From: Alloalcanivorax gelatiniphagus
GTDB taxonomy: Bacteria; Pseudomonadota; Gammaproteobacteria; Pseudomonadales; Alcanivoracaceae
Length of the DNA: 64,000 nt
NCBI RefSeq assembly: GCF_005938655.1
Contig: NZ_VCQT01000044.1
Location: forward strand, 1 to 64,000
Reading direction: 5' to 3'
The translations under genes and the position numbers were made by a program. This document shows, piece by piece, positions 4,348 to 44,573 of the stretch. The notes beneath the pieces were generated by a model, which worked only from the letters and a program-made list of their open reading frames with translations, was not told where the DNA came from and searched no databases. Each line of letters begins with the position of its first letter. Position 1 is the stretch's first letter.

Positions 4348-4364
4348 TTCCCAGGATCGCGGGG

Positions 4365-4428
4365 GATCGCGACTGAAGTCGCTCCTACAGCGGGGAGCCT
4401 CGTTGTAGGAGCGACTTCAGTCGCGATC
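4365..4428. repeat. REP-like inverted pair
   Basis: Two copies of the window's REP hairpin face each other (4365-4389 and 4404-4428; core GGAGCGACTTCAGTCGC) with a 14-base gap. This is the head-to-head pairing typical of Pseudomonas-type REP doublets. The pair lies between the convergent ends of the ABC-F and DUF502 genes and may protect or terminate both transcripts. The right copy contains the DUF502 stop codon. Confidence 0.85.
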
Positions 4429-5061
4429 AGCCCCCACCTCCGCCGCCTCCCCATGCTTCAACAACGCCGCACTGCCAGCACCACAGGCCACCACGGTCTT
4501 CATCATCTGCTCCACGCCGATATCCGGGCGCCGCTCCACCAGGTTCTCGTCCACGTGGTAAATGAAACCCGAAGTGGGGTTGGGCCCGGTGGGCACGAAC
4601 ACCGACAGCACCCCGTCCTCGTGCCGGGAGGTGATCAAGCCCAGCACCGTCACCGACACCTGCCGCCCGTACAACCACACCCGCGCCACCTCGCCGCGCA
4701 TCAGGCTGTCCTGGCTGCCGCCGAACAGCTGGGTGATCACTTCCTTGACGGTGCGATACCCCGGCACCCGGGCCATGCCCCGCTCTTCCAGCCGCTGCCA
4801 GATCCAGCCGCCCAGCTTGGTGGCCACCAGGGTGCCGACCAGGAAGCAGAACACCACCAGCACCGCCACCACCACCCAGTCGGCGGCGAACTTGGGCAGC
4901 CCGAAGGCACGCACCACCAGCCCGGTGAACGGTGCGATCAGGCTGGTCACCGCGTCGTAAATCCACTTGAAGAAGAACGCGATAATGGAAATGGGCAGCA
5001 GGATCAGCAGCCCGCCCAACAGGGATTTTCGAATAAAAAACCAAACTCGGTTATTGCTCAT
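4417..5061 (-). CDS. DUF502 family inner-membrane protein
   Basis: A 214-residue membrane protein with two hydrophobic segments, about residues 10-33 (LLGGLLILLPISIIAFFF) and 48-70 (VVVAVLVVFCFLVGTLVAT). A cytosolic or periplasmic domain follows, containing the family motifs VPGYRTVKEVITQ and FVPTGPNPTSGF. This is the DUF502 architecture; the role is unknown. The start is the ATG whose AUGA overlaps the greB stop, implying translational coupling; a longer in-frame start would run into greB. The last residues (ADRD) and the stop are encoded by a REP element, so the native C-terminus has probably been replaced. Confidence 0.85.
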   Translation of the reverse strand: MSNNRVWFFIRKSLLGGLLILLPISIIAFFFKWIYDAVTSLIAPFTGLVVRAFGLPKFAADWVVVAVLVVFCFLVGTLVATKLGGWIWQRLEERGMARVPGYRTVKEVITQLFGGSQDSLMRGEVARVWLYGRQVSVTVLGLITSRHEDGVLSVFVPTGPNPTSGFIYHVDENLVERRPDIGVEQMMKTVVACGAGSAALLKHGEAAEVGADRD

Positions 5062-7271: not shown

Positions 7272-9572
7272 ATGCCCTCCGCTCTCGAACGCCAACCCCT
7301 CGGCATTCTGGTACTGATCGCCAGCCAGGATAGCCGCGCCGATACCGCCGCCGGCCACGCCATCGCCGCCCTGATCCAGGATCTGGAACGCCGCGACATG
7401 ACCGTGGTCACCGCCCTCACCAGCGAGGACGCGGTGGCCATGCTCTCGGCGGAACCGGCCATTCAATGCGTACTCACCAGTTGGAGCCTGCCCGGCGCCC
7501 TTACCCAACATGGCGCCCTGGAGGTATTGTCGAGCCTGCGCGAACGCAGCGCCGAGGTGCCCGCCTTCCTGCTCGCCAGCCGGGAAACGGCCAAGACCAT
7601 TCCCATGCGCGCCATGGAAATGGCCAGCGATTATATCTGGCTGCTGGAAGACACCCCGTCCTTTATCGGCGGCCGCATCCTGGCGGCCATCGAACGCTAT
7701 CGACAGAACGTGCTGCCGCCCATGTTCGGCGCCCTGGTACGCTTCTCCCGGGTCCACGAGTACTCCTGGCACACCCCGGGCCACCACGGCGGCACCGCCT
7801 TTCTGAAAGCGCCGGTGGGGCGCGCCTTCTTCGAGTTCTACGGCGAAAACATGCTGCGCTCGGACCTTTCCATCTCGGTGGGCGAGATGGGCTCCCTGCT
7901 CGATCACAGCGGCCCCATCGGCGCCGGCGAACGCTATGCCGCCCGGGTGTTCGGCGCCGACCGGACCTACTACGTGACCAACGGCTCCTCCACCTCCAAC
8001 CGGGTGATTCTGATGGCGTCGGCGACCCGCGATCAGGTGGTGCTGTGCGACCGCAACTGCCACAAATCCGTGGAACACGCGATGACCCTGTCCGGCGCGG
8101 TGCCCTCCTATCTGGTGCCGAGCCGCAACCATTACGGGCTGATCGGCCCGATCCCGCCGCAACGGCTCACCGCCGAGGCGATCCGCCAATCCATCGCCGC
8201 CAGCCCGTTGTGTCAGGGGCTGGCGGACAGCAATCCGGTGCACGCGGTGATCACCAACTCCACCTACGACGGCCTCTGCTACAAGGTGTCCCGGGTGGAA
8301 GAGCTGCTCGGCGAAAGCGTGGACCGTCTGCATTTCGACGAAGCCTGGTACGGCTATGCCCGCTTCAACCCGATCTACCGGGAACGCTTTGCCATGCACG
8401 GCGAGCCCGGCGAGGATCGCCACGACAAACCCACCCTGTTCGCCACCCAGTCCACCCACAAGCTGCTGGCGGCCCTGTCCCAGGCTTCCATGATCCATGT
8501 CCGCGACGGGCGGCGGCCGATTGAACACAGCCTGTTCAACGAAGCCTTCATGATGCACGCGTCCACCTCGCCGCTGTACAGCATCATCGCCTCCAACGAC
8601 GTCAGCGCCGGCATGATGGACGGCCCCGGCGGCGAACGGCTCACCGGTGACGCGATCCGCGAAGCGGTGGCGTTCCGCCAGGTGATGGCGCGCCTGAACA
8701 CGGAGTACGACGAGAAAGGCGAGTGGTTCTTCGGCGTCTGGCAGCCGGAAACCGCCACCGACCCGATGAGCAAGGAGCGCTACCCGTTCCATGAAGCGCC
8801 GCTGGAGCTGCTCGCCGGCAGCCCGGAATGCTGGACCCTGAAGCCCGGCGAACGCTGGCACGGCTTCAAGGATCTGGAGGCGGATTACTGCATGCTCGAC
8901 CCGGTGAAGGTGTCCATTACCACCCCGGGCATGGGCTTCGACGGCAAGCTGAAAACCTCCGGCATTCCCGCCGCGGTGGTCAGCGCCTATCTGGATGAGC
9001 GCGGTATCGTGGTGGAGAAAACCACCGACTTCACCATCCTGTTCCTGTTTTCCATCGGCATCACCAAGGGCAAGTGGGGCACGCTGATCAACGCCCTGAT
9101 GGCCTTCAAACGGGACTTCGACGCCGACACGCCGCTGCATCGTTGCATGCCCGGGTTCGCTGCCCGCCATGGTCTGAATCCGGATCAGGGGCTGCGCAGC
9201 CTGGCCTGGTCCATGTTCGACGCCATGGCCGCGCTGCGCACCACCGCGCTGATGAGCGAGAGCTTTTCGGTGCTGCCCACCCCGGATCTGTCACCGGTAC
9301 AGGCCTACGAAAAACTGGTGCAGGGCCAGGTGGAGCAATTGCCGCTTTCCGCCCTGGCCGGCCGCACCCTGGCCACCGGCGTGGTGCCCTATCCACCGGG
9401 GATTCCCCTGCTGATGCCCGGCGAGAACGCCGGCCCGGCGGACGGCCCGGTGCTCGGCTACCTGAACGCGCTGCAAGAGTTCGACCGCCGCTTCCCCGGC
9501 TTTGAGCACGACAACCATGGCGTCGAGGTGATCGACGGCACCTACCACCTTTATTGCCTCAAAAACCACTGA
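7272..9572 (+). CDS. PLP-dependent Orn/Lys/Arg decarboxylase
   Basis: A 766-residue fold-type I decarboxylase of the AdiA/CadA/SpeC superfamily. Residues about 1-130 form the receiver-like wing domain, 140-580 the PLP domain and 590-760 the C-terminal domain. The PLP lysine is Lys-397 in TQSTHKLLAALSQ, with HFDEAWYGYARF upstream as the cofactor-contacting segment. AGGAG lies 7 bases before the ATG. It is followed after 14 bases by an AdiC-like antiporter, which suggests an amino-acid/amine exchange system used in acid resistance or polyamine production. Arginine to agmatine is favoured from the antiporter; lysine (LdcA-like) is a real alternative. Confidence 0.88.
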   Translation: MPSALERQPLGILVLIASQDSRADTAAGHAIAALIQDLERRDMTVVTALTSEDAVAMLSAEPAIQCVLTSWSLPGALTQHGALEVLSSLRERSAEVPAFLLASRETAKTIPMRAMEMASDYIWLLEDTPSFIGGRILAAIERYRQNVLPPMFGALVRFSRVHEYSWHTPGHHGGTAFLKAPVGRAFFEFYGENMLRSDLSISVGEMGSLLDHSGPIGAGERYAARVFGADRTYYVTNGSSTSNRVILMASATRDQVVLCDRNCHKSVEHAMTLSGAVPSYLVPSRNHYGLIGPIPPQRLTAEAIRQSIAASPLCQGLADSNPVHAVITNSTYDGLCYKVSRVEELLGESVDRLHFDEAWYGYARFNPIYRERFAMHGEPGEDRHDKPTLFATQSTHKLLAALSQASMIHVRDGRRPIEHSLFNEAFMMHASTSPLYSIIASNDVSAGMMDGPGGERLTGDAIREAVAFRQVMARLNTEYDEKGEWFFGVWQPETATDPMSKERYPFHEAPLELLAGSPECWTLKPGERWHGFKDLEADYCMLDPVKVSITTPGMGFDGKLKTSGIPAAVVSAYLDERGIVVEKTTDFTILFLFSIGITKGKWGTLINALMAFKRDFDADTPLHRCMPGFAARHGLNPDQGLRSLAWSMFDAMAALRTTALMSESFSVLPTPDLSPVQAYEKLVQGQVEQLPLSALAGRTLATGVVPYPPGIPLLMPGENAGPADGPVLGYLNALQEFDRRFPGFEHDNHGVEVIDGTYHLYCLKNH

Positions 9573-20553: not shown

Positions 20554-20583
20554 GCCCCCCCCCCACAACACCGGATTCACCCC

Positions 20584-20607
20584 GTAGGAGCGACTTCAGT
20601 CGCGATC
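20584..20607. repeat. Single REP-like hairpin
   Basis: One copy of the GGAGCGACTTCAGTCGC-type REP between rho and the integrase relic. Similarity of the relic to integron integrases ends almost exactly at this copy, so the REP may have inserted into, or recombined at, the dead gene. Confidence 0.8.
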
Positions 20608-20609
20608 CC

Positions 20610-20790
20610 CGAAGGCCCCAACGCCTCTTCATGCCTGAACACCACCGCTACCCTCTGGCACCTCCGCGAATGGCTAAAATCCAGCCCCTCCAGCAACTGA
20701 CCTAGAAACCCCCGATAGAGAAACACCAGAGCCTTCAATCCGGTCTTCTGGGCATCCGGACTGCAACTCCTGTGAACCGCAAGACCGGCG
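20610..20790 (-). pseudogene. Decayed integron-integrase (IntI) fragment
   Basis: Read on the minus strand, one frame gives LAVHRSCSPDAQKTG, then KALVFLYRGFLGQLLEGL, DFSHSRRCQRVAVVF and RHEEAL. This follows the order of the N-terminal (SAM-like) domain of IntI-type tyrosine recombinases, where SASTQNQAL-ALxFLY, then RARRPQRxPVVxSxEE, is expected. Start, C-terminal catalytic domain and the IntI-specific patch are gone; a REP cuts the 3' side. The orientation, reading away from plus-strand cassettes, is the standard intI geometry. Recognition is by eye; a XerC-like origin is the alternative. Confidence 0.6.
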
Positions 20791-21067
20791 CCCTGCCCCC
20801 GTCACCCCCATTCCTTAAAAGGCGACCTCAACGACAACCGGCGCTTAGCGCCGCGCCCTTGCAGCTAATGGGTAGCCCATGCATTAAAAGATATGCGATA
20901 TTCTAGTGGCCCACACATCAGACATGCGAGATATAAGACAAAGAAATAAAAGTCACTTGTCGCAAAGGTCGCCGACCGGAAAGTCAGTGGGGAATGCAAG
21001 GCGTTGGTACCCGGGGCCTTACGCGCCGCCTGATCGGAACGGCGCACGGATATACGCCTGGGGATAT
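20791..21067. other. Presumed old attI / first-cassette boundary region
   Basis: There is no supported gene here. A palindrome GGCGCTTAGCGCC lies at about 20840-20852, and AGGCGTTGGTACC at about 21000-21012 resembles the right core end of an attC or attI junction (G-TTRRRY, imperfect). The 54 codons open upstream of the FRG gene in this interval have a composition unlike protein, so they are treated as non-coding. Confidence 0.3.
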
Positions 21068-21889
21068 ATGACAAACGTCGGTGATAAACTGTTAGGAATA
21101 TCTTCGATGGAATACTGTGATACCAAAATTTTTGGTTCTGTACCCCTGCCTAATTCAATTTCCGAAATCCTTGATTTGGCGAGGGAGCATTCTGCTGACA
21201 GGAGAAACGTCCACTTGTGGAGAGGTCAAAGTAATATCGTTTGGCCCATTCATAGCTCAGGATACAGAAGACTAATTAGAAAAAATCAAACTGTAAATGA
21301 ATCTAGGATGCAGTCCTATGAGGAGTATTTACTGACGCATGCAACTCATCAGGGCTATCGGTTTGAATCGGGGCGGGAGTTATCAGATTTCGAACTCTTG
21401 GCGAAACTTCAACATCATGGCGCTGCAACAAGGCTAATAGACTGTTCAAGGAACATTATGGCGGCTCTCTGGTTCGCCTGCGCTTCAGAACCAGATGAAA
21501 AAGGCCTTCTTTTTGGTGTTCACTCTGACCATCTAGGCGGAGGCGAGAACAAACCCGAGACGCGCCAATACAAAGATATTTTTAAAGGGCTCGAGCAGTT
21601 CAGGCACCCACAGACTTGGCAACCTCCGGTTGTATCCAAAAGAATTGCCGCGCAAGGTGCACAGTTCTTATACAGTACGGTGGTTGATTGCAAGATGGGC
21701 AGTCTTGCCATTGAGGAAGAGAAAGAAACACATATAGCGATTGGCATCTCTCCGGCTTTCAAAAGCATTGCTCTTGAGGAGCTGTCTGGATTATTTGATA
21801 TCCGTTACCTGACTTTATTCCCCGATATTGACGGGTTTGGCCACGCGAACAGCCAAGAATTTGATCAGCATGAGAGTGAAAGATGGTAA
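21068..21889 (+). CDS. FRG-domain protein (integron cassette)
   Basis: A 273-residue AT-rich gene product with the FRG-domain landmarks: VHLWRGQSNIVWPIHSSGYR at the N-terminal third and LQHHGAATRLIDCSRNIMAALWFA in the middle. FRG is named for the conserved F/Y-R-G triad (here W-R-G) and occurs in bacterial conflict proteins; its activity is not settled. The ATG at 21068 follows GGGGA by 4 bases. Longer in-frame starts reach into the cassette boundary. The stop is followed by one base and then an attC-like site, so this is a one-gene cassette, probably first from the old integrase. Confidence 0.75.
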   Translation: MTNVGDKLLGISSMEYCDTKIFGSVPLPNSISEILDLAREHSADRRNVHLWRGQSNIVWPIHSSGYRRLIRKNQTVNESRMQSYEEYLLTHATHQGYRFESGRELSDFELLAKLQHHGAATRLIDCSRNIMAALWFACASEPDEKGLLFGVHSDHLGGGENKPETRQYKDIFKGLEQFRHPQTWQPPVVSKRIAAQGAQFLYSTVVDCKMGSLAIEEEKETHIAIGISPAFKSIALEELSGLFDIRYLTLFPDIDGFGHANSQEFDQHESERW

Positions 21890-21890
21890 T

Positions 21891-21962
21891 TCCTAACAAT
21901 TAGCTGTTGTCGGGCGTACCTAAGCCTGCGCTTCGGTACGCAGCTAAGCCACGAGGTTAAAA
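21891..21962 (+). repeat. attC-like recombination site of the FRG cassette
   Basis: It begins with TCCTAAC and ends with GTTAAAA (core RYYYAAC ... GTTRRRY with small deviations). Inside, TTAGCT pairs with AGCTAA and GCGTACC pairs with GGTACGC, giving a long imperfect hairpin with unpaired bases. Left flank TAACAA and 72-bp length are typical of attC sites, oriented with the plus-strand gene. Confidence 0.7.
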
Positions 21963-21975
21963 ATCAAGGAAAACC

Positions 21976-22929
21976 ATGGGCAGACCTGCAATCCCAGCCG
22001 AGGTTAAGAGAGCCGTTTTAGTCGAAGCCGGCCACCGTTGTGCTATTCCTCGATGCGGCGAAACAGAGCTTGATGTGCACCACATAGTTCCCTGGGAAAC
22101 GTGCCAAAAACATGAGTATTCAAACCTGATTGCGCTTTGTCCCATCTGCCACCGCAGAGCCCATAAAGGTGAGATTGATCGTAAGGCCTTGCTTCAATAT
22201 AAATCTGCACTCAGTGCAGGTAGTGGGCCAGGAATGCAAACTAATTCTGAGGCCCCTATTGTTGAGATTAGGAGGCGAATATTTGAAAAGACCACGGAGG
22301 TGCCTGGTTACACATTCCAGTTTGACTTTCCGGACTTTGAAGGCATAGCACAACGTATTGTTTCAAAAAATATAGAGGCTTGGGGATATGAGCTTTTGGC
22401 GAAATTTAGGCATTATCAGGAAACGTTCCTGCCTGTTAAGGAGGAAAACGACCCAGAAATCGATAGCTTTTTAAAGGCCCCCAGCAGCCTAAGTGGCAGT
22501 TACCAAATCATTCGTAATGATGATGTGGTTATTAGTCTTGAATACACACTAGATAGATTTTTGACTGGCTCGGCACATGGTGGGCGTAGCACCCGCGTCC
22601 AGAACTTCTTGATCAGCCCGTTTCAACCTATAACCCCCAAGGACCTTCTAGCTGACAACTCTTCGCTAGATGACCTTTCAGAATTGGTTCGAAGCAGACT
22701 ATTATCAAATCGACAGTATAGTGAAGAGTGGGTTATCAGAGGTACGGAGCCAGAAGAGAGAAATTTTTCTAAATTTATTTTGGAAAAAGACGGCATTCAA
22801 TTTTTTTTCGATGAGTATAAAATTGACTGTTATGCCTCAGGAAGGCAAAGGCTTTGGATTGGTTTTGACCAGTTTTCAGATATTGGTAATCTGGATTTGT
22901 TGTCGAAGCTAGCGAGCAATGACTTTTAA
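21976..22929 (+). CDS. HNH endonuclease fused to a DUF4163/DUF3298-like domain (integron cassette)
   Basis: A 317-residue protein. Residues about 18-65 form an HNH nuclease: CAIPRC and CPIC zinc-knuckle cysteines around LDVHHIVPWE (catalytic His pair) and NLIALCPICHRRAH. After a linker (about 66-110), residues 115-310 resemble DUF4163/DUF3298 of RsiV-like proteins: VVISLEYTLDRFLTGSAHGG, ITPKDLL, LSELVRSRLL, FILEKDGIQFFFDEYKI and ASGRQRLWI in family order. There is no signal peptide, although DUF3298 proteins are usually exported. The pairing of a nuclease with this sensor-like domain is unusual and hints at a cytosolic sensor-effector. It is AT-rich and flanked by attC-like sites. Confidence 0.72.
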   Translation: MGRPAIPAEVKRAVLVEAGHRCAIPRCGETELDVHHIVPWETCQKHEYSNLIALCPICHRRAHKGEIDRKALLQYKSALSAGSGPGMQTNSEAPIVEIRRRIFEKTTEVPGYTFQFDFPDFEGIAQRIVSKNIEAWGYELLAKFRHYQETFLPVKEENDPEIDSFLKAPSSLSGSYQIIRNDDVVISLEYTLDRFLTGSAHGGRSTRVQNFLISPFQPITPKDLLADNSSLDDLSELVRSRLLSNRQYSEEWVIRGTEPEERNFSKFILEKDGIQFFFDEYKIDCYASGRQRLWIGFDQFSDIGNLDLLSKLASNDF

Positions 22930-22999
22930 AAACGGGCTGCAGCGGACCGTTTCCCGACGCGGGGGCCTCCAAATCGGCCACTGAGCCCGGGCGCTAGGC
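22930..22999 (+). repeat. Degenerate attC-like site after the HNH cassette
   Basis: Left arm GGGCTGCAGCGGACCG and right arm CGGCCACTGAGCCC pair along nearly their whole length, leaving one G and one A extrahelical, as in folded attC sites. The right end GGGCGCTAGGC is one base from the usual GGGCGTTAGGC. The left core is poorly kept (AAAAAC). Confidence 0.58.
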
Positions 23000-23020
23000 A
23001 ATAAAGGGAAAGGTTCTGAT

Positions 23021-23689
23021 ATGGTGGATTTCTTTGGGAATGGCCTATGCATTCATTGCCATTTGGCAAAAAATGAGCTTGTGGATCTTGCTAGCTTCAA
23101 TCAGCTGTCAGAGGCTTCATGGAAAGAGAAAGATGATACTTTACAGGAAGAACTGTCCGAACTGTTAGAAAAATATCCGGAAAAAAGTCATGACGACATT
23201 ATTGATAGTTATTCATGGGAACTTCACCTCAATCAGCAAAAATACCCCACCTTACATAGAGAATCATTGGTTATAACGGTTTTTAACTTTCTTGAGCATC
23301 AGCTAAACTCTTTGTGCCACATATTTTATGAGAGCATTAGCAGCAACCTTAAATTGAAAGACATTCATGGGCAGGGAGTAGAAAGGGCATTATTATTCTT
23401 AACAAAGGTAGTAAATATTGATTTAGCATCCTTTGGTGCGGAGCTTCCAGCCATAAAAGGTGTAAACCTCGTGAGAAATATCATTGTCCATAATGGTGGA
23501 GTACTTCCTAGTGACGCTCACGCAAAAGTTAATAAGTTTGTTTCCGAGGCAGAGCACATATCTGGCAGTGCAGGAAGAGGCGTAAACATTCATGCTGAAT
23601 TTATAGCATATTTTATTGACATACTGGCAGCATTTTTCGATAAGCTGGACAAAGAAGTCCAGAAGCACATTCAGGCATACCATGCCTAA
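23021..23689 (+). CDS. HEPN-like protein (integron cassette)
   Basis: A 222-residue all-helical AT-rich protein with no signal peptide. The segment NLVRNIIVHNGG (about residues 148-159) holds an R-N-x3-H motif, the Rx4-6H signature of HEPN ribonucleases, in the expected late position of a helical domain. The preceding region (ESLVITVFNFLEHQLNSLCH) is also HEPN-like. HEPN proteins act as toxins or abortive-infection RNases; no partner antitoxin is encoded next to it. The stop codon lies inside the core GCCTAAC of an attC-like site. A distant family match is possible; the assignment rests on the motif. Confidence 0.6.
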   Translation: MVDFFGNGLCIHCHLAKNELVDLASFNQLSEASWKEKDDTLQEELSELLEKYPEKSHDDIIDSYSWELHLNQQKYPTLHRESLVITVFNFLEHQLNSLCHIFYESISSNLKLKDIHGQGVERALLFLTKVVNIDLASFGAELPAIKGVNLVRNIIVHNGGVLPSDAHAKVNKFVSEAEHISGSAGRGVNIHAEFIAYFIDILAAFFDKLDKEVQKHIQAYHA

Positions 23690-23770
23690 CATGACAAATG
23701 CACTCGGACATCAAAAAACGACGCTCCTTCATCGCTCTGCTTTTTGTCGCCAGTGATTTGCGGCTTTATG
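23684..23770 (+). repeat. attC-like site between convergent cassettes
   Basis: It opens with a perfect core GCCTAAC that contains the HEPN stop. CAAATGCACT pairs with AGTGATTTG leaving one G unpaired, and an inner AAAAA/TTTTT stem follows. The right core is not recognisable. Because GCCTAAC reads GTTAGGC on the other strand, this site could have served either neighbour; the plus- and minus-oriented parts of the array meet here. Confidence 0.5.
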
Positions 23771-24188
23771 AGGTGATTGCACCATAGTGGAACTCGTATG
23801 GACCATCTGTACGGAACCCCATCCCCTGATAAAAATCGGCTGCGCCAGAACCCTTGTGGGCCACTAACCAAGCGCCACCGTTTTTCAGGCTTTGGATCAA
23901 CGCGCGGGCTACACCCTGCTTCCTGCATGCTTCGGAAACGAATAGCTCCTGGATACAGGTGAGGCGGCCGGAATGCCAAGGGTACGAAAACGAAAATAAC
24001 GCTCCTGTTACCTCGCCGTTCTCCTCAGCAATAAAGCAGTTCGCTGGATCAATCTCGAAAAAACGCTGTAAGTAGGCGTGTGCGTTGGCCAACTCCCAAG
24101 TTTCATTATACGGCGGGGCGGCATACGCCTCGCAAAATATCACTGCCACTTGTTCAATATCTTCTATTGCGCAATTTCGTATCTGCAT
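23766..24188 (-). CDS. GNAT N-acetyltransferase (integron cassette)
   Basis: A 140-residue GNAT protein. It starts MQIRNCAIEDIEQVAVIFCEAY and has the acetyl-CoA loop in ELFVSEACRKQGVARALIQ (R-x-x-G-x-A). The family's C-terminal part ends AADFYQGMGFRTDGPYEF. Acetyltransferases, including AAC(6')-type aminoglycoside enzymes, are common integron cargo; the substrate here is not predictable. It lies between two attC-like sites and reads opposite to the three cassettes on its left. Confidence 0.82.
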   Translation of the reverse strand: MQIRNCAIEDIEQVAVIFCEAYAAPPYNETWELANAHAYLQRFFEIDPANCFIAEENGEVTGALFSFSYPWHSGRLTCIQELFVSEACRKQGVARALIQSLKNGGAWLVAHKGSGAADFYQGMGFRTDGPYEFHYGAITS

Positions 24189-24208
24189 ACTTCTCCACCC
24201 TATAAACC

Positions 24209-24264
24209 CAATAACGCCTCAATCAGCTGCCGCTTTAGCGGTCTGCTGCATTGACTTGTTAGCC
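24209..24264 (-). repeat. attC site overlapping the DUF4062 gene end
   Basis: On the minus strand it runs from GGCTAACAA to AGGCGTTATTG. TCAAT pairs with ATTGA, CAG with CTG, and CCGCT with AGCGG around a 2-base loop. TAACAA at the left and AGGCGTTA at the right are hallmark attC ends. The site encodes the last 13 residues (NKSMQQTAKAAAD) of the DUF4062 protein. Confidence 0.75.
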
Positions 24265-25466
24265 ACCTTTCTAGCTTTCCGCCAGTGTTTTATTGATTGC
24301 ATCCCTTTCTTGTTATTCATTTTTTTGTATTCTTCAAAGACCTCATCTGAAACTATTTTTGCATCTGCCATATTCCCCAATTCAGCATGACATTTTGCAA
24401 CTTTCCATTTTAAATCAGCTTTTCGGGAATTATCGTAATTTGGGCAAATAGATAAAGCCGATTTATAATGTTCAATAGCTACATCAGGCTTTCTCTGACT
24501 TGCAGTCAAATCTCCAATCCAAATATGAACTGAAGCTTCGCCTTTTTTATCTCCAGCTCTCTCTTTAAGTTGCAGTGCATTTTGAAGTGCTGATAATGCC
24601 TCACCATTTCGACCTTGTGCCCTATAAATTCCACCAATTCTTGCTATTGCAGTTGATGCCCATGAAGTATCTCCAGAGCCATCAGCGAGATCATGCATTT
24701 GCTGATAAAGTGTTTTTGCATCTTCATACCTTTCGGCTTTGGTTAAGAAAAGCCCATACCTATCAAAAGAGTGCATATCTCGTTTTATTATTACGTCATT
24801 CGCCAACTCCTTCTCTGCGTCAGTGTCTCCACTCCTGCTTTTTAATTCTTCTATGAATGATATATCTGATTGGTCTATGCTTTGGATTTCTGTGTCATTA
24901 GCTAACTCTTTATCTTCTACAGAAGTGTCGCCGCTATGTTCTCGTGTCCACTTTGCCACGTGTCGCCTTAGCTTCTCACCAAATGCTTCTGGAGTATCAA
25001 AAGTTTCAAACAAAAGATTTCTTTCCTTTTCGAGAGACCTCTTAAAATCTAGAACAGCCGATAATTGAGGGCCCGGATCACTCATTCTTCTATGGTCTAC
25101 GGCTTTAAAAAACACCACTATATCTCGCATCGGAAGCTCTTCAGATTTCAGACAGTCGAGCGCCACCATATACTCTTCATGAGTTCCCGAGGTATAGCCT
25201 TCTTTAGCTCCAGTCGGGCTTCCCCAACGATCCCACAGAACCAAAACAAAGAGATCACAAGATTTTAAATCTTCATTTATTTTTGACTGGGGTCTACCCA
25301 TACCTCCCAAGGTGATTTCCCAGCCAATTGTTTGAAAATGACATCCTCTATCAATTGCATCAGCTTCGTTATGAGATGAGAGAAGTTCTCTAAAGACTTT
25401 TCGTTCTGATTCAAGTCCGCCCGGGCTAGCTATAAAAACTCTATAGTTTGTAATTTGTGATGCCAC
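24219..25466 (-). CDS. DUF4062-TPR protein (integron cassette)
   Basis: A 415-residue AT-rich protein. Residues about 6-100 match DUF4062: NYRVFIASPGGLESERKVF, then CDLFVLVLWDRWGSPTG and TSGTHEEYMVALD. Residues about 230-390 hold TPR-like repeats (GLFLTKAERYEDAKTLYQQM, GEALSALQNALQLKERAGD, DVAIEHYKSALSICPNYD). DUF4062 often precedes protein-interaction or NTPase modules in conflict-associated proteins. A GTG start at 25466 is preferred because AGAGGAGG lies 5 bases upstream and just inside the cassette junction; an in-frame ATG 72 bases earlier would lie across the junction. The C-terminus is encoded by attC. Confidence 0.75.
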   Translation of the reverse strand: MASQITNYRVFIASPGGLESERKVFRELLSSHNEADAIDRGCHFQTIGWEITLGGMGRPQSKINEDLKSCDLFVLVLWDRWGSPTGAKEGYTSGTHEEYMVALDCLKSEELPMRDIVVFFKAVDHRRMSDPGPQLSAVLDFKRSLEKERNLLFETFDTPEAFGEKLRRHVAKWTREHSGDTSVEDKELANDTEIQSIDQSDISFIEELKSRSGDTDAEKELANDVIIKRDMHSFDRYGLFLTKAERYEDAKTLYQQMHDLADGSGDTSWASTAIARIGGIYRAQGRNGEALSALQNALQLKERAGDKKGEASVHIWIGDLTASQRKPDVAIEHYKSALSICPNYDNSRKADLKWKVAKCHAELGNMADAKIVSDEVFEEYKKMNNKKGMQSIKHWRKARKVANKSMQQTAKAAAD

Positions 25467-25483
25467 TCTTTCCTCCTCTGACT

Positions 25484-25816
25484 GGCTAACAGGTATTAGG
25501 ACGCCGTCTCGAATATCCAATGAACGCGCCGGCGTCATATCCCGGCTTGCGTTTTTTGATATAAAACCTAATAAACCAGATGTTTCATATAGTTACAAAC
25601 CTTTCACTAGTTGGCCGCCCCCGTTCGCGTGACCACTTTGTTTGCCGGTACCGATCATACTGTCCATTTGGGCAGAAGCAGGGGCGAGCGGGCGGCACTG
25701 CACTTCTGTCACGATCTTTGGTGGGGCTTATCGCGACTGAAGTCGCTCCTACAATTAGCTGGTAGAGCCTGTGCACCATGGCATCGTGCCCGCCGGGCGG
25801 GCTGTTTGCGGCCGGT
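25484..25816. repeat. Cassette-junction / ubiD-upstream repeat, copy 1
   Basis: About 330 bp resembling 30035-30395. On the minus strand it holds an AT-rich promoter-like stretch, then an inverted repeat around GACGCC/GGCGTC and ends at GTTAGCC, exactly where the DUF4062 cassette begins, so it acts like attI or a last attC. Toward its right end are a degraded and an intact REP (25730-25753) and the shared GGCATCGTGC. Whether it is true attI is not proven, because no integrase reads away from it. Confidence 0.65.
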
Positions 25817-25834
25817 CTTTCCACAGGACCCCGT

Positions 25835-25874
25835 AACGCAAAACGCCCCGGTGATGACCGGGGCGTTTTGCGTT
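25835..25874. terminator. Strong hairpin, likely terminator of the mscS-like gene
   Basis: A perfect 17-bp stem AACGCAAAACGCCCCGG with a 6-base loop and A/T-rich outer bases lies about 45 bases beyond the stop of the minus-strand mscS-like gene. A diverged copy occurs at 27245-27289. Confidence 0.75.
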
Positions 25875-25919
25875 TGAGGCCGGGCTCAACCGCCCCGGCC
25901 TGCGATTGTTATGATCCGC

Positions 25920-26822
<903 letters not shown>

Positions 26823-27102
26823 TTGGAAAATCCTAATTGCCAGCACATAGTCTGGCTCCGCGGCGGTGTTGGAGGAGTGGAGCGCAGGGAACGGCGCCCG
26901 ACAACAGCCCCAGGTTAGCTGATGAACCTGGCCATGGCACGACTGTCCGCCCCTTCCCCGGCCTCAAGGGCAACCTTCACACTGGCCCGGTTCTTTTCCG
27001 GTTGATTCTGACTCGCCTTCAACTTGCCCGCCAAGCCGGCCGTTATACTGCCCCGCACCTTGCAGCCGGCAGGGTGGGCCCGAGTTAGCAGCTGACGAAG
27101 GT
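26823..27102. other. Intergenic mosaic upstream of mscS
   Basis: There is no gene here. It holds half of an attC-like site on the minus strand: GCTAAC, then GCTGTTGTCGGGCG (plus 26895-26908), a 14-base string identical to the attC at 21903-21916. It also holds a copy of the ubiD promoter region (TTATACTGCCCCGCACCTTG at about 27046). It therefore joins pieces of the cassette array and of the ubiD upstream region. Confidence 0.5.
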
Positions 27103-27216
27103 CTGCGCAAGGAGCTCCACCCCATGGACGAGATCGGTGCGGTGGAATTCCCTATCGACCGCGTGAAGCAGACCAAGACCAACGCCGAATTCTTCGATTC
27201 CATGGAGCGCAAGTAA
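27103..27216 (+). pseudogene. Duplicate 3' end of rho
   Basis: A 38-codon fragment ending in a stop that aligns without gaps to the last 38 codons of rho, with 11 differences in 114 bases. The protein differs at V to E, L to P, M to V and K to E. It has no start and no upstream rho sequence. Such a fragment is expected where a block has inserted at, or recombined into, the rho 3' end. Ten percent divergence suggests transfer from a related strain rather than a recent local duplication. Confidence 0.88.
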
Positions 27217-27244
27217 CACCGGCGGTCTTTTCACAAAACCGCGC

Positions 27245-27289
27245 AACGCAAGCCCCCCCCCCGGCTCACCGCCGGGGCGTCTTGCGTTT
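27245..27289. terminator. Imperfect terminator-like hairpin
   Basis: AACGCAAG pairs with CTTGCGTT and an inner CCCCGGC/GCCGGGG stem follows, ending near GTTTA. It is a diverged relative of the hairpin at 25835 and lies between the rho fragment and the TrmH-like gene end. Confidence 0.5.
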
Positions 27290-27322
27290 AAGGCCAGCGC
27301 CAGAACGTACCGCAACTACCTG

Positions 27323-27940
27323 TCAGGCATCATCCACGGGAACCCGCTTGTTCCTTTTCCGATACTTCCTCTGATACTCACGGCGCTGCTTGGTCACCTC
27401 ATAAAGGACGATGCCGGATGTGGTGGCAAGATTAAAGCTCTCGATCATCCCAAACATGGGGATGCTGATGCACAATATACTGTTCGCAATAGCGGTATCA
27501 CTGATACCCCGAGACTCATTGCCAAACCAAACGGCCAGCTTGTACCACTCCGTAAAGTCGATCTCATCGAGAACGCCATTGTTTCGTCCCTTGACGTGTG
27601 GAGACGTAACGATCGAGACAAAGCGATTTTTCTCCAGGTGCGCAATGCAGTCCTCGGTGCTGCCAAAGCGCTTGACGAAACTCCATTTGATAGCCGAAAC
27701 GGATGTCTGGTTGAGCGCTTTCGTTCTTCGCATTTCTTGCCAATCGTCCGGAAGGGCTGACCTGGGATCGATCACGTACACCTTCTCCACACCCAGGGCA
27801 TTCACGTTGCGAATTACCGTTCCGATATTTCTGATATCGCTCGGGTCTTCAATAACGGCAATCAAGTTTTTGCAGCGGTCGCCCTTGATTTCATCCGCGC
27901 GCTTCCGCACCGAACTCTTTCGTTTTTTCTCTTCCGTCAT
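27323..27940 (-). CDS. TrmH/SpoU-like RNA 2'-O-methyltransferase (likely cassette)
   Basis: A 205-residue SPOUT methyltransferase with all three trefoil-knot motifs: motif 1 PSDIRNIGTVIRNVNALG, motif 2 LAVWFGNESRGIS, motif 3 CISIPMFGMIESFNLATTSG. The family transfers methyl from SAM to ribose 2'-OH of tRNA or rRNA; TrmH (Gm18) is the closest pattern, but an extended basic C-terminal tail (QRREYQRKYRKRNKR) is distinctive. Its ATG follows GAGGAA. The perfect core GTTAGGC lies 26 bases upstream, so it is probably an integron cassette, an uncommon cargo. Its own downstream site is reduced to GCCTGAC at the stop. Confidence 0.82.
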   Translation of the reverse strand: MTEEKKRKSSVRKRADEIKGDRCKNLIAVIEDPSDIRNIGTVIRNVNALGVEKVYVIDPRSALPDDWQEMRRTKALNQTSVSAIKWSFVKRFGSTEDCIAHLEKNRFVSIVTSPHVKGRNNGVLDEIDFTEWYKLAVWFGNESRGISDTAIANSILCISIPMFGMIESFNLATTSGIVLYEVTKQRREYQRKYRKRNKRVPVDDA

Positions 27941-27965
27941 TTCCTCGCTACCGCTCTCACGTAAT

Positions 27966-28043
27966 GCCTAACGCCAGGATCGTCTGCTGATTGGGATTTC
28001 CGTGGCAGTCTTTAGCGAGCCCCGCTGCGACTTTTTTAAGCAC
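27966..28043 (-). repeat. attC-like site between the lipoprotein and TrmH cassettes
   Basis: On the minus strand it ends in a perfect GGCGTTAGGC next to the TrmH-like gene. The left end GCTTAAA overlaps the lipoprotein stop. GTCGCAG near the left pairs imperfectly with CAGCAGAC near the right. Confidence 0.6.
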
Positions 28044-28428
28044 TATCTGGCCTCAATTCCATAGGGCCCCCTCCTTCAGAGCACGACCTAAGCTCAAGAA
28101 CACGCCTTCTGGTGATAACCAAATGAAACTCGGCCGACCAGAAACCATCACAAATATACCTTTTCCTGAGGGAGGACCAATTTTCCAACAGTCCTTTTAG
28201 TGATTTTTCATAGCTCACTTTTGAGCCGTCGCCAAAAGTTATCGTGGCGCCCTCATAATGAAGCCCGCGAATTTTCCGTGTCGCATTCCGCTCTACCGAA
28301 TGGGAAGCTCCGCCCACTTCGACAACAACAGCACCCTCCGTGGCATTGTAAATATAAAACGGCTCATCTACAGAGCAGGAAACCATGCTGATAAGAAAAA
28401 CCGAGGCAGCCAGTATACGTACTCTCAT
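28036..28428 (-). CDS. Small lipoprotein (integron cassette)
   Basis: A 130-residue protein with a lipoprotein signal peptide ending SMVSC, lipid anchor at about Cys-18. The mature part is short and beta-rich with a Ser/Lys core. No family was recognised. The second of two adjacent ATGs is chosen because AAGG is closer to proper spacing; the start could be one codon earlier. attC-like sites flank it on both sides, and the stop overlaps one of them. Confidence 0.6.
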   Translation of the reverse strand: MRVRILAASVFLISMVSCSVDEPFYIYNATEGAVVVEVGGASHSVERNATRKIRGLHYEGATITFGDGSKVSYEKSLKGLLENWSSLRKRYICDGFWSAEFHLVITRRRVLELRSCSEGGGPMELRPDSA

Positions 28429-28438
28429 CATCCTTGAT

Positions 28439-28530
28439 CCCTAACGCCCACAGCCCTCGCGGTCGGTGCGTAGCGTCGGCCGCCCCGCAGAGCCTCAAGC
28501 CCTCCGGCATCGAGCCGGTGGCGGTTATCT
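28439..28530 (-). repeat. attC-like site of the membrane-protein cassette
   Basis: On the minus strand it runs from AGATAAC to GGGCGTTAGGG. CGCCAC-CGGCTCG at the left pairs imperfectly with CGAGGGCTGTGGGCG at the right. Length is 92 bp. The right core is one base from consensus. Confidence 0.55.
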
Positions 28531-29352: not shown

Positions 29353-29409
29353 AAATAACCTCTGAATTAAGCCGCGCGAAGCGGCGCCGGCTTGAATGAA
29401 TTGTTAGCG
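29353..29409 (-). repeat. attC site of the outer lipoprotein cassette
   Basis: On the minus strand, CGCTAACAATTCATTCAAGC, then a GCGCCGCTTCGCGC apex, then GGCTTAATTCAGAGGTTATTT. It closely resembles the classic 60-base element of aadA-type cassettes, with the same TAACAA left flank and GCTTAATTCA right arm. It contains the stop codon of the lipoprotein gene. This is the clearest attC in the window. Confidence 0.85.
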
Positions 29410-30012
29410 CTCTACCGACTTGGTGATAATGTAGTGAATCTCGTAACCGCGGCCAGTTGGCCAGTCATCTCGCTTTACCTCGTGTTTGAACTCTCCGGAG
29501 ACTTCGCTAGTCGAGCGGCCCGCTGAAAGTGCTGAAAGGACGCCAGGTGGGAGGTCGCCACCAGCAGCTTTGAATGAAAGAGCTTTTGACGCTGCGATAA
29601 GCTTTTCCGTCGCAAGAGACGCGTTTTCTGGCTGGTTGTAGTTCAACACCAGCTTTACCGTGTCCGCCACATTCGCGCTGCCTGTGACGTAGTACGCAAG
29701 GTTGTTGGCTAGCCGCATATCCGATTGACCAATATCCTTGTACGGCGAGGAGCAATGGTACTCATCGTCAAAGTCGTGCCTGTACCCACGCGTTACAAGT
29801 GTCGGATCTAGGAAGGAGCAGGCCTCACTGGGAAGCCAGCCAATGCTCACTACAGGTCGTTCCTGCTGTGGTGCAGCGGCAACGTCTGCTGCATTTGCTG
29901 ACGCGGTCGCTTCCGCAGCAACTGACTCGCTTGATGATTGGCTAGAGCCGCCATCCGAGCAGCCAGCGACGAATAACGTGGCTAAGATTATTGGAACGAT
30001 TAGATTTCTCAT
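29404..30012 (-). CDS. Lipoprotein (first cassette next to junction copy 2)
   Basis: A 202-residue lipoprotein: the signal peptide ends LFVAGC (anchor Cys-18), followed by a Ser/Ala-rich linker (about 20-50). A mature domain with CSFLDPTLVTRGYRHDF, EYHCSSPYKDIG and a late DWPTGRGYEIHYIITKS follows; two Cys may form a disulfide. No family was recognised. AGGGGA lies 10 bases before the ATG. The gene starts just inside the GTTAGCG junction at 30035-30041 and its stop is inside an attC, so it is the junction-proximal cassette, the position with the strongest expression in an active integron. Confidence 0.7.
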   Translation of the reverse strand: MRNLIVPIILATLFVAGCSDGGSSQSSSESVAAEATASANAADVAAAPQQERPVVSIGWLPSEACSFLDPTLVTRGYRHDFDDEYHCSSPYKDIGQSDMRLANNLAYYVTGSANVADTVKLVLNYNQPENASLATEKLIAASKALSFKAAGGDLPPGVLSALSAGRSTSEVSGEFKHEVKRDDWPTGRGYEIHYIITKSVER

Positions 30013-30034
30013 GGCGCGACATTCCCCTATTGAG

Positions 30035-30395
30035 CGCTAACGGGTATTAGGACGCCGTCTCGAATACCCAATGAACGCGCCGGCGTCCTATCCCGGCTTC
30101 CGTGCTTTGATATAAAACCGAATAAATCAGATATTTCATAAAGTTACAAACCTTTCACAGCGGCGCTCCCGGTCCCGTGAGCCTTTGGTTTGTCGGCATC
30201 GACTATGCTGTCCATGTGGGCAGCGGCTGGGACGACCGGGTGGTACTCCGTTGCTGTCGCGGTCTCCGGCGGCGGTTATCGCGACTGCGGTTATCGCGAC
30301 TGACGTCGCTCCTACATGCGAGCCTGCGGGAGGTTGGGGGGCATGGCATCGTGCGGGGCGGGTGGGCTGTTATACTGCCTCGCACCTTGTAGCCG
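30035..30395. repeat. Cassette-junction / ubiD-upstream repeat, copy 2
   Basis: The counterpart of 25484-25816. On the minus strand GGGATAGGACGCC pairs with GGCGTCCTAATACCC and ends at GTTAGCG, the cassette junction. To its right are degenerate and intact REP copies (30293-30316) and then the ubiD promoter (TTATACT at about 30369). This copy adjoins ubiD, so it is probably the original location. Confidence 0.65.
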
Positions 30396-30410
30396 GCGAG
30401 ATTCCGTTTC

Positions 30411-43010: not shown

Positions 43011-44246
43011 ATGCAAACCCGACTCAGCGACACCGCCCGCCAACTGCCCCGCGCCGAGGAAGCGGAATCGATCCTGCGCAGCTGCGTGCATTGCGGCTTC
43101 TGCAACGCCACCTGCCCCACCTACCAGCTCACCGGCGACGAGCTGGACGGCCCGCGCGGGCGCATCTATTTGATGAAGGAAATGCTGGAGGGCAACGAGC
43201 CCGGCGACGGCACCCAGCAGCACCTGGACGCCTGCCTGAGCTGCCGGGCCTGCGAGACCACCTGCCCTTCCGGCGTGGACTACCACTCCCTGCTGGACAT
43301 CGCCCGGCCGGAACTGGAGCGCCAGGTGCCCCGTTCCACGCGGGACCGGCTGCTGCGTCGGGGCCTGCGCGCCCTGATGCCGCACCCGCGACTGTTCGCC
43401 GCCCTGATGGGATTGGGGCGGCTGGTCCGGCCGCTGGCGCCAACGGCACTGAAAGAGAAGATCCCCGCCCGGGTGCCGCCGGCGGGCCACTGGCCCGGCG
43501 GCGGCCACCCACGCCGGGTGGCGCTGCTGGCCGGCTGCGTGCAACCGGCCCTGTCACCCAACACCAACGCCGCCACCGCCCGGGTGCTGGACCGTCTCGG
43601 CATCGGCGCGGAAGTATGGTCCGGCGCCGGCTGCTGCGGCGCGGTGGACTATCATCTGGACGGCCAGGCCACCGGCCTGGACCGGGCCAGACGCAATATC
43701 GACACCTGGATCGCCGCCCTGGACGACGGCGTGGAAGCGATCATCCCCACCGCCAGCGGCTGCGGCGCCTTTATCAAGGAATACGGCAAGGTGCTCGCCG
43801 ACGACCCGGCCTACGCCGACAAGGCACGCCGGGTCAGCGCGCACAGCCGCGATCTGGGCGAGTTTCTCGCCGAAGAGAATCTGGACACGCTGGCAGTGCA
43901 CACCGAAAGCCGGCTCGCCTTCCAATGCCCTTGTACCTTGCAACACGGCCAGCGCCTGGCCGGCGTCACCGAAGGCGTGCTCACCCGCCTGGGCTTCGAC
44001 CTCACCCCGGTACCCGACGGCCACCTGTGCTGCGGCTCCGCCGGGACCTACTCCATCACCCAACCGGCCATGGCCCGGCAACTGCGCGACAACAAGCTCG
44101 ACGCCCTGGAAAGCGGCCAACCGGACGCCATCGCCACCGCCAATATTGGCTGCCAGATGCATCTGGGCGCGGCTGGGCGGGGGCCGGTACGGCATTGGAT
44201 CGAGGTTGTGGATCAGGGGTTATCCGCGACGCTTGATCGCGACTGA
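43011..44246 (+). CDS. glcF: Glycolate oxidase iron-sulfur subunit GlcF
   Basis: A 411-residue protein with two [4Fe-4S] ferredoxin motifs (CVHCGFCNATCPTY and CLSCRACETTCPSG). Two CCG domains follow (WSGAGCCGAVDYHL and GHLCCGSAGTYSI with flanking Cys). It carries electrons from the flavin subunits to the membrane. Its last four residues (LDRD) and stop are supplied by a REP element. The last 50 or so codons are repeated just downstream as a gene fragment. Confidence 0.95.
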   Translation: MQTRLSDTARQLPRAEEAESILRSCVHCGFCNATCPTYQLTGDELDGPRGRIYLMKEMLEGNEPGDGTQQHLDACLSCRACETTCPSGVDYHSLLDIARPELERQVPRSTRDRLLRRGLRALMPHPRLFAALMGLGRLVRPLAPTALKEKIPARVPPAGHWPGGGHPRRVALLAGCVQPALSPNTNAATARVLDRLGIGAEVWSGAGCCGAVDYHLDGQATGLDRARRNIDTWIAALDDGVEAIIPTASGCGAFIKEYGKVLADDPAYADKARRVSAHSRDLGEFLAEENLDTLAVHTESRLAFQCPCTLQHGQRLAGVTEGVLTRLGFDLTPVPDGHLCCGSAGTYSITQPAMARQLRDNKLDALESGQPDAIATANIGCQMHLGAAGRGPVRHWIEVVDQGLSATLDRD

Positions 44247-44315
44247 AGTCGCTCCTACAGGGTGGTCGGATATCTCTGTAGGAGCGACTGGGCGGCACTC
44301 CGCTTCAGTCGCGAT
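44235..44315. repeat. REP-like pair with one extended copy
   Basis: A standard copy 44235-44259, containing the glcF stop, faces an extended copy 44277-44315, in which TGGGCGGCACTCCG is inserted in the loop side of the core. Confidence 0.82.
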
Positions 44316-44341
44316 GAACTCGCCCCAACCGCGCTATTGCG

Positions 44342-44501
44342 GAACAACAAACCCGACGCCCTGGAAAGCGGCCAACCGGACGCCATCGCCACCGCCAATA
44401 TCGGCTGTCAGATGCATCTGGGCGCGGCTGGGCGGGGGCCGGTACGGCATTGGGTCGAGGTTGTGGATCGGGGGTTGTCCGAGAGGCTTGATCGCGACTG
44501 A
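44342..44501 (+). pseudogene. Tandem-duplicated glcF 3' fragment
   Basis: About 155 bases repeat the end of glcF (44090-44246) at roughly 92 percent identity by eye. The repeat continues the same frame (LESGQPDAIATANIGCQMHL to VEVVDRGLSERLDRD) to the same REP-borne stop. There is no start codon context or ribosome site. The repeat unit of about 252 bp includes the REP pair, as expected of a tandem duplication or exchange between REP copies. Confidence 0.85.
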
Positions 44502-44573
44502 AGTCGCTCCTACACCGGCTCCGAACGCACCGTATGTCCAATGGAGGCGGTAGGAGCGACTTTAGTCGCGATC
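44490..44573. repeat. REP-like inverted pair
   Basis: Facing copies at 44490-44514 and 44550-44573. The second has one change (CTTTAGTC). The pair separates the glcF fragment from the convergent amidase gene end. Confidence 0.82.

Follow-up and report, generated by a model that had tools for sequence, protein, structure and literature searches.

Organization of the rho-ubiD gap

The window (the whole stretch of Alloalcanivorax DNA analyzed here, 64,000 nucleotides) has no integrase; it carries three arrays, each headed by an attI, which run in two orientations. A fragment of an integron integrase gene (intI) lies beside rho, and two minus-strand arrays, each headed by another type of attI (native attI), face the integron to which the fragment belongs. 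The features are listed below; G numbers designate genomes used for comparison.

20584-20606, minus strand: REP-like palindrome where the integrase fragment is cut off, 100% complementary to 25730-25752
20623-20786, minus strand: intI fossil, about residues 53 to 106 of 315 (TIGR02249; tblastn; 69% protein, 72% DNA)
20854-21090, plus strand: leader and attI of the fossil integron (motif at 21048-21090, shared with intI-linked attI)
21091-21955, plus strand: cassette 1, FRG-domain protein (Pfam FRG); attC 21891-21962; start GTTAGGA, R'' TCCTAAC
21956-22992, plus strand: cassette 2, HNH/DUF3298 protein (Pfam HNH); attC 22924-22999, both core boxes mutated
22993-23766, plus strand: cassette 3, 222-aa protein; decayed attC from 23684 (GCCTAAC), read from sequence
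23766-24208, minus strand: GNAT cassette (Pfam Acetyltransf_7), truncated at the meeting point of the opposed arrays; GTTATTG start box at attC 24209-24264
24209-25490, minus strand: DUF4062/TPR cassette; attC 24209-24264 (from its attC score); start GTTAGCC, R'' GGCTAAC
25491-25607, minus strand: native attI copy B (core 25491-25541); promoter-like boxes TTGTAA 25593-25598 and TTTATT 25570-25575
25813-25881: displaced copy of the post-rho terminator, 91-92% to the sequence directly after rho in G003, G011 and G012
25920-26846, minus strand: MscS-family gene, possibly a decayed cassette (Pfam MS_channel_2nd)
27038-27070: displaced ubiD leader copy, 91% to 30365-30397
27093-27295, plus strand: rho 3' tail with rho terminator, displaced; 114 bp match rho at 90% and 190 bp match G002 at 88%
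27323-27972, minus strand: TrmH/SpoU methylase cassette (Pfam), start GTTAGGC, own attC missing
28036-28445, minus strand: lipoprotein-like cassette, start GTTAGGG, 50% to a G012 array protein
29353-30041, minus strand: lipoprotein-like cassette; attC 29353-29409 (score 32.8, above all shuffles); start GTTAGCG, R'' CGCTAAC
30042-30158, minus strand: native attI copy C (core 30042-30092), adjoining ubiD; promoter-like boxes TTGTAA 30144-30149 and TTTATT 30121-30126

The fragment beside rho derives from an integron integrase

A preliminary description of this DNA had proposed an integron-integrase fossil adjoining rho, with three N-terminal IntI landmarks in order and no stop between them. The minus-strand frame 20577-20786 is indeed free of stops, reads ...GLAVHRSCSPDAQKTGLKALVFLYRGFLGQLLEGLDFSHSRRCQRVAVVFRHEEALG... 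and keeps the order ALVFLYR, RRCQRVAVVF, RHEEAL. When the fragment was analyzed with hmmscan, TIGR02249 (integrase_gron) was the sole NCBIfam match (E=3.8e-5, model positions 53-106 of 315), and Pfam Phage_int_SAM_4 matched under the Pfam gathering score (E=0.0016). Intact IntI proteins of relatives matched the fragment collinearly by tblastn (E to 2e-13, 59% over 54 aa). The closest protein match among 392 genomes of the order was the second intI of A. hongdengensis (69% identity, E=1.3e-18), to which the DNA also is homologous (72% over 162 bp, window 20623-20784). Because a profile match, collinear IntI homology and DNA homology to the closest intI were all obtained, the fragment is not a chance resemblance; these comparisons confirm that it is a true remnant of an integron integrase.

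The protein comparison with IntI and XerC/D that the description had proposed likewise gave the IntI N-terminal domain as the better match. A decay product of XerC/XerD or of another phage-type tyrosine recombinase, not of an IntI, would suit Pfam's match to a general SAM-like integrase domain, but this reading has next to no probability, given that TIGR02249 alone matches in NCBIfam, that IntI queries reach 2e-13 while the genome's own Xer recombinases, used as queries, gave no match at the locus, and that a matching attI lies in the correct place. A PDB search with the fragment returned only kinase matches over 17 to 21 residues, which are attributable to chance; a tblastn search of plasmids gave weak matches only, and an Rfam search gave nothing relevant.

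The fragment is without IntI residues 1-52 and all residues beyond about 106. The catalytic R, HxxR and Y are all absent, and it is thus not a working enzyme; no intI reaching the cut-off was found elsewhere in the window's genome. As the preliminary description had noted, the frame ends at a REP: the palindrome at 20584-20606 lies about 16 bp past the end of the IntI homology and has other copies in the window and in relatives. By itself, such a fossil is ordinary integron decay.

The fossil integron retains its attI and three cassettes

Alignment of the A. hongdengensis and G020 integrons yielded the motif GGATATACG...GATATA.G.CA...GTCG.TG.AT..ACT|GTTR, which in both directly precedes the first cassette, beside intI. 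The window copy (21048-21090) is followed by GTTAGGA. The motif was found in six places in 4 of 46 family genomes, and the reversed pattern in none. Judged by position (between intI and the first cassette, ending GTTRRRY), both the fossil and the native types qualify as attI. The preliminary description had also argued that the frame points away from plus-strand cassettes, the standard intI layout. This argument holds, since the cognate attI directly precedes a cassette starting with GTTAGGA, the complement of that cassette's R'' TCCTAAC.

attC sites were located with a two-ended profile with pairing, calibrated on 60 shuffles. This was chosen because a fixed-length covariance model penalized the variable loop; that model, which was set aside, found one strong site in the window. 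Strand and side of the attC sites played no part in training on the window. The attC of cassette 1 scored 26.6 (95% level of shuffles, 25.6) and that of cassette 2 scored 30.8, above 60 of 60 shuffles. The FRG protein of cassette 1 is a PADLOC candidate (PDC-S15, E=5e-30), and the 222-aa protein of cassette 3 has a weak PADLOC HEPN match (E=2e-5). With attI and attC present and no working intI in the genome, this is not a complete integron.

A copy of the fossil-type attI with a 240-bp leader and no intI also occurs in A. marinus (9182-9423, 85% over 242 bp), where it heads an array with three strong attC sites.

Two minus-strand arrays form a mosaic with the fossil integron

Copies B and C of the native attI each head a minus-strand cassette with perfectly matching start and R'' boxes. 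Copy B is 96% identical over 54 bp, and copy C 91%, to the intI-linked attI of G003, and C is 92% identical to B. The attC of the DUF4062/TPR cassette scored 38.3, above all shuffles, and was detected by the covariance model (E=4e-5); its protein matches PADLOC PDC-S60 (E=1e-16). The TrmH/SpoU cassette is 93-95% identical to rho-adjoining genes in G003 and G012, and the two lipoprotein-like ORFs are without family matches. The MscS-family gene, which has an attC-like site at 25831-25914 (score 27.1), was not found in the rho-ubiD gaps of relatives. The Pfam and PADLOC matches suggest defense functions for the cargo. Overall, three attC sites in the window scored above all 60 shuffles and two more above the 95% level. 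With at least two clustered attC sites and no working intI nearby, the window contains a CALIN, an attC cluster lacking integron-integrase (PMC8618304, PMC12444791).

Because a displaced rho terminator, ubiD leader and rho tail (87-90% identical to rho) stand between attI copies B and C, along with the MscS gene, the gap is a mosaic that combines three or more array segments. It may have come from tandem duplication or from recombination with a related strain; a recent duplication is disfavored because the copies are only 74-92% identical. The genome is a 50-contig draft with repeats at this locus, and an assembly error might be suspected. We consider this very unlikely, as repeat copies of 74-92% identity are too different for the usual misjoin and the contig spans 331.6 kb. 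REP-like palindromes (GTAGGAGCGACTTCAGTCGCGAT) at 4362-4434, 20584-20606, 25730-25752, 30291-30316 and 44218-44514 flank mosaic segments.

The gap was readable in 14 genomes, mostly drafts like the other genomes compared: 12 Alloalcanivorax (0.9-9.9 kb) and two outside the genus. All 12 Alloalcanivorax genomes carry a variable insert there, and its genes vary between species despite 90-99% identity of rho and ubiD. Recurrent genes are limited to the TrmH cassette and, weakly, one lipoprotein. Strong minus-strand attC sites occur in the gap of at least six genus genomes. The ubiD end of the gap carries a native attI, the core of which is nearly identical to the attI beside the family's true intI genes.

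Native attI is genus-wide and intI is mostly missing

The native attI and its leader were found in all 13 genus genomes, in one to eight places each (eight in the window's genome, on five contigs); the reversed-pattern control gave zero matches. The site lies beside intI in G003, A. hongdengensis, A. jadensis and G014. Its conservation is limited to a 50-bp core and two boxes (TTGTAA, 17 nt, TTTTAT-like), which look like a cassette promoter. Of 33 native copies examined from the 13 genomes, 27 are followed on their own strand by an attC within 4 kb, and 6 lack a strong attC within that distance. The attC sites around them number 51 downstream on the same strand, 0 on the opposite strand and 1 upstream, a count that is partly circular because the 26 sites of relatives used for training included some from the same loci. 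The lone upstream site belongs to the neighboring array of the window itself. The genus thus has cassette arrays at multiple attI sites of the chromosome, and a conserved promoter-like leader accompanies each site.

At E<=1e-30, two of the 13 genus genomes have intI: G011 (contig C2) has the only intact copy of the genus, and G003 keeps 135 residues. An IS3-like insertion directly upstream of the G011 gene (about 18107 on C2) parts it from its attI. Remnants of 135, 45, 18 and 15 residues lie beside native attI copies in four genomes. By flanking homology, the locus is the same in G003, G011, G012 and the window's genome; G005 has just about 380 bp in common with it. No remnants were found upstream of the remaining attI copies, the guaA-side and rho-ubiD copies included, in the species examined. 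In A. jadensis, three attI stand against a single intI over the cut-off.

Origin of the integrase-less arrays

Taken together, it is probable that a fossil integron of a minor type was joined to older attI-bearing arrays that are integrase-less and were filled in trans. The fossil is the remnant intI of a minor Alcanivoracaceae type. Its first 52 or so residues are lost, and so is the entire catalytic part, which was cut off at the REP beside rho; its attI and three partly decayed cassettes have stayed. This integron was joined onto an older cassette array occupying the rho-ubiD gap of the genus. The cassettes of the dispersed arrays probably came in through IntI made at one locus and acting in trans, and probably also through occasional visitors like the fossilized type. 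Subsequent decay of the integrase in most species would have left attI-bearing CALINs that the cell's own enzyme cannot shuffle.

A broader version, in which Alloalcanivorax has a distributed integron of promoter-plus-attI units scattered along the chromosome, each with an array of its own, and a single integrase, now mostly lost, filled them all in trans, is held tentatively, at slightly below an even chance. If true, each genome would have many first-cassette positions, not one.

The arrays without intI may instead be relics of separate integrons. Each attI locus would once have been a complete integron, with every intI lost independently and no need for trans action; the intI remnants beside the fossil attI and beside native attI in four genomes accord with this. 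We think it unlikely, because the other attI copies, including those at guaA and rho-ubiD, have no upstream remnant in the species examined and A. jadensis has three attI for a single intI over the cut-off.

CALINs are common, and several routes of origin have been proposed (PMC8618304). As in reported CALINs (PMC8618304, PMC12444791), attC cassettes without integrase occur at several chromosomal loci, as described for Xanthomonas; unlike them, the Alloalcanivorax arrays are each headed by a recognizable attI with a conserved promoter-like leader, with many per genome. The inactivated ilvD integron of Xanthomonas (PMC12444791) likewise adjoins a housekeeping gene and has lost intI in a lineage-specific way while its arrays remain, but its intI is at one locus, whereas the window joins two integron types in opposite orientation. 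An attI-bearing CALIN in a Shewanella prophage (PMC9892861) also has no integrase and shares its initial attI with an intI-linked array; it is a single prophage case, whereas the Alloalcanivorax arrangement is chromosomal and genus-wide, with 1 to 8 copies per genome. The second A. hongdengensis integron (G029:C20/C34) has the intI nearest to the fossil and the same attI type; its intI is seemingly whole, split over two contigs, whereas the window keeps about a sixth. No papers on chromosomal integrons of Alcanivorax were found among the open-licence literature.

The unusual part is the genus-wide many-attI arrangement, which is a variant of known CALINs. Because the orphan arrays keep attI and related species show graded loss of intI, routes of CALIN origin can be compared here and action in trans becomes testable. 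If one integrase fills many attI, Alloalcanivorax would depart from the usual picture, in which there is a single integron and only its first cassette is strongly expressed.

Other native attI loci in the genome

We also considered whether attI units might move in cassette form, which a GTT-like box at the start of the A. marinus unit would fit; the other copies gave no support, and the idea was rejected.

On contig C30, a native attI with cassettes lies directly downstream of guaA (1388, minus strand). On contig C4, the sequence preceding an attI (3698, plus strand) looks like the 3' tail of guaA out of place, just as the window has a rho tail out of place. Two related TetR-type genes on C4 (12413-13126 and upstream of 19621) each precede an attI copy, with terminator and leader the same in both cases, which would suit a duplication of gene and attI together.
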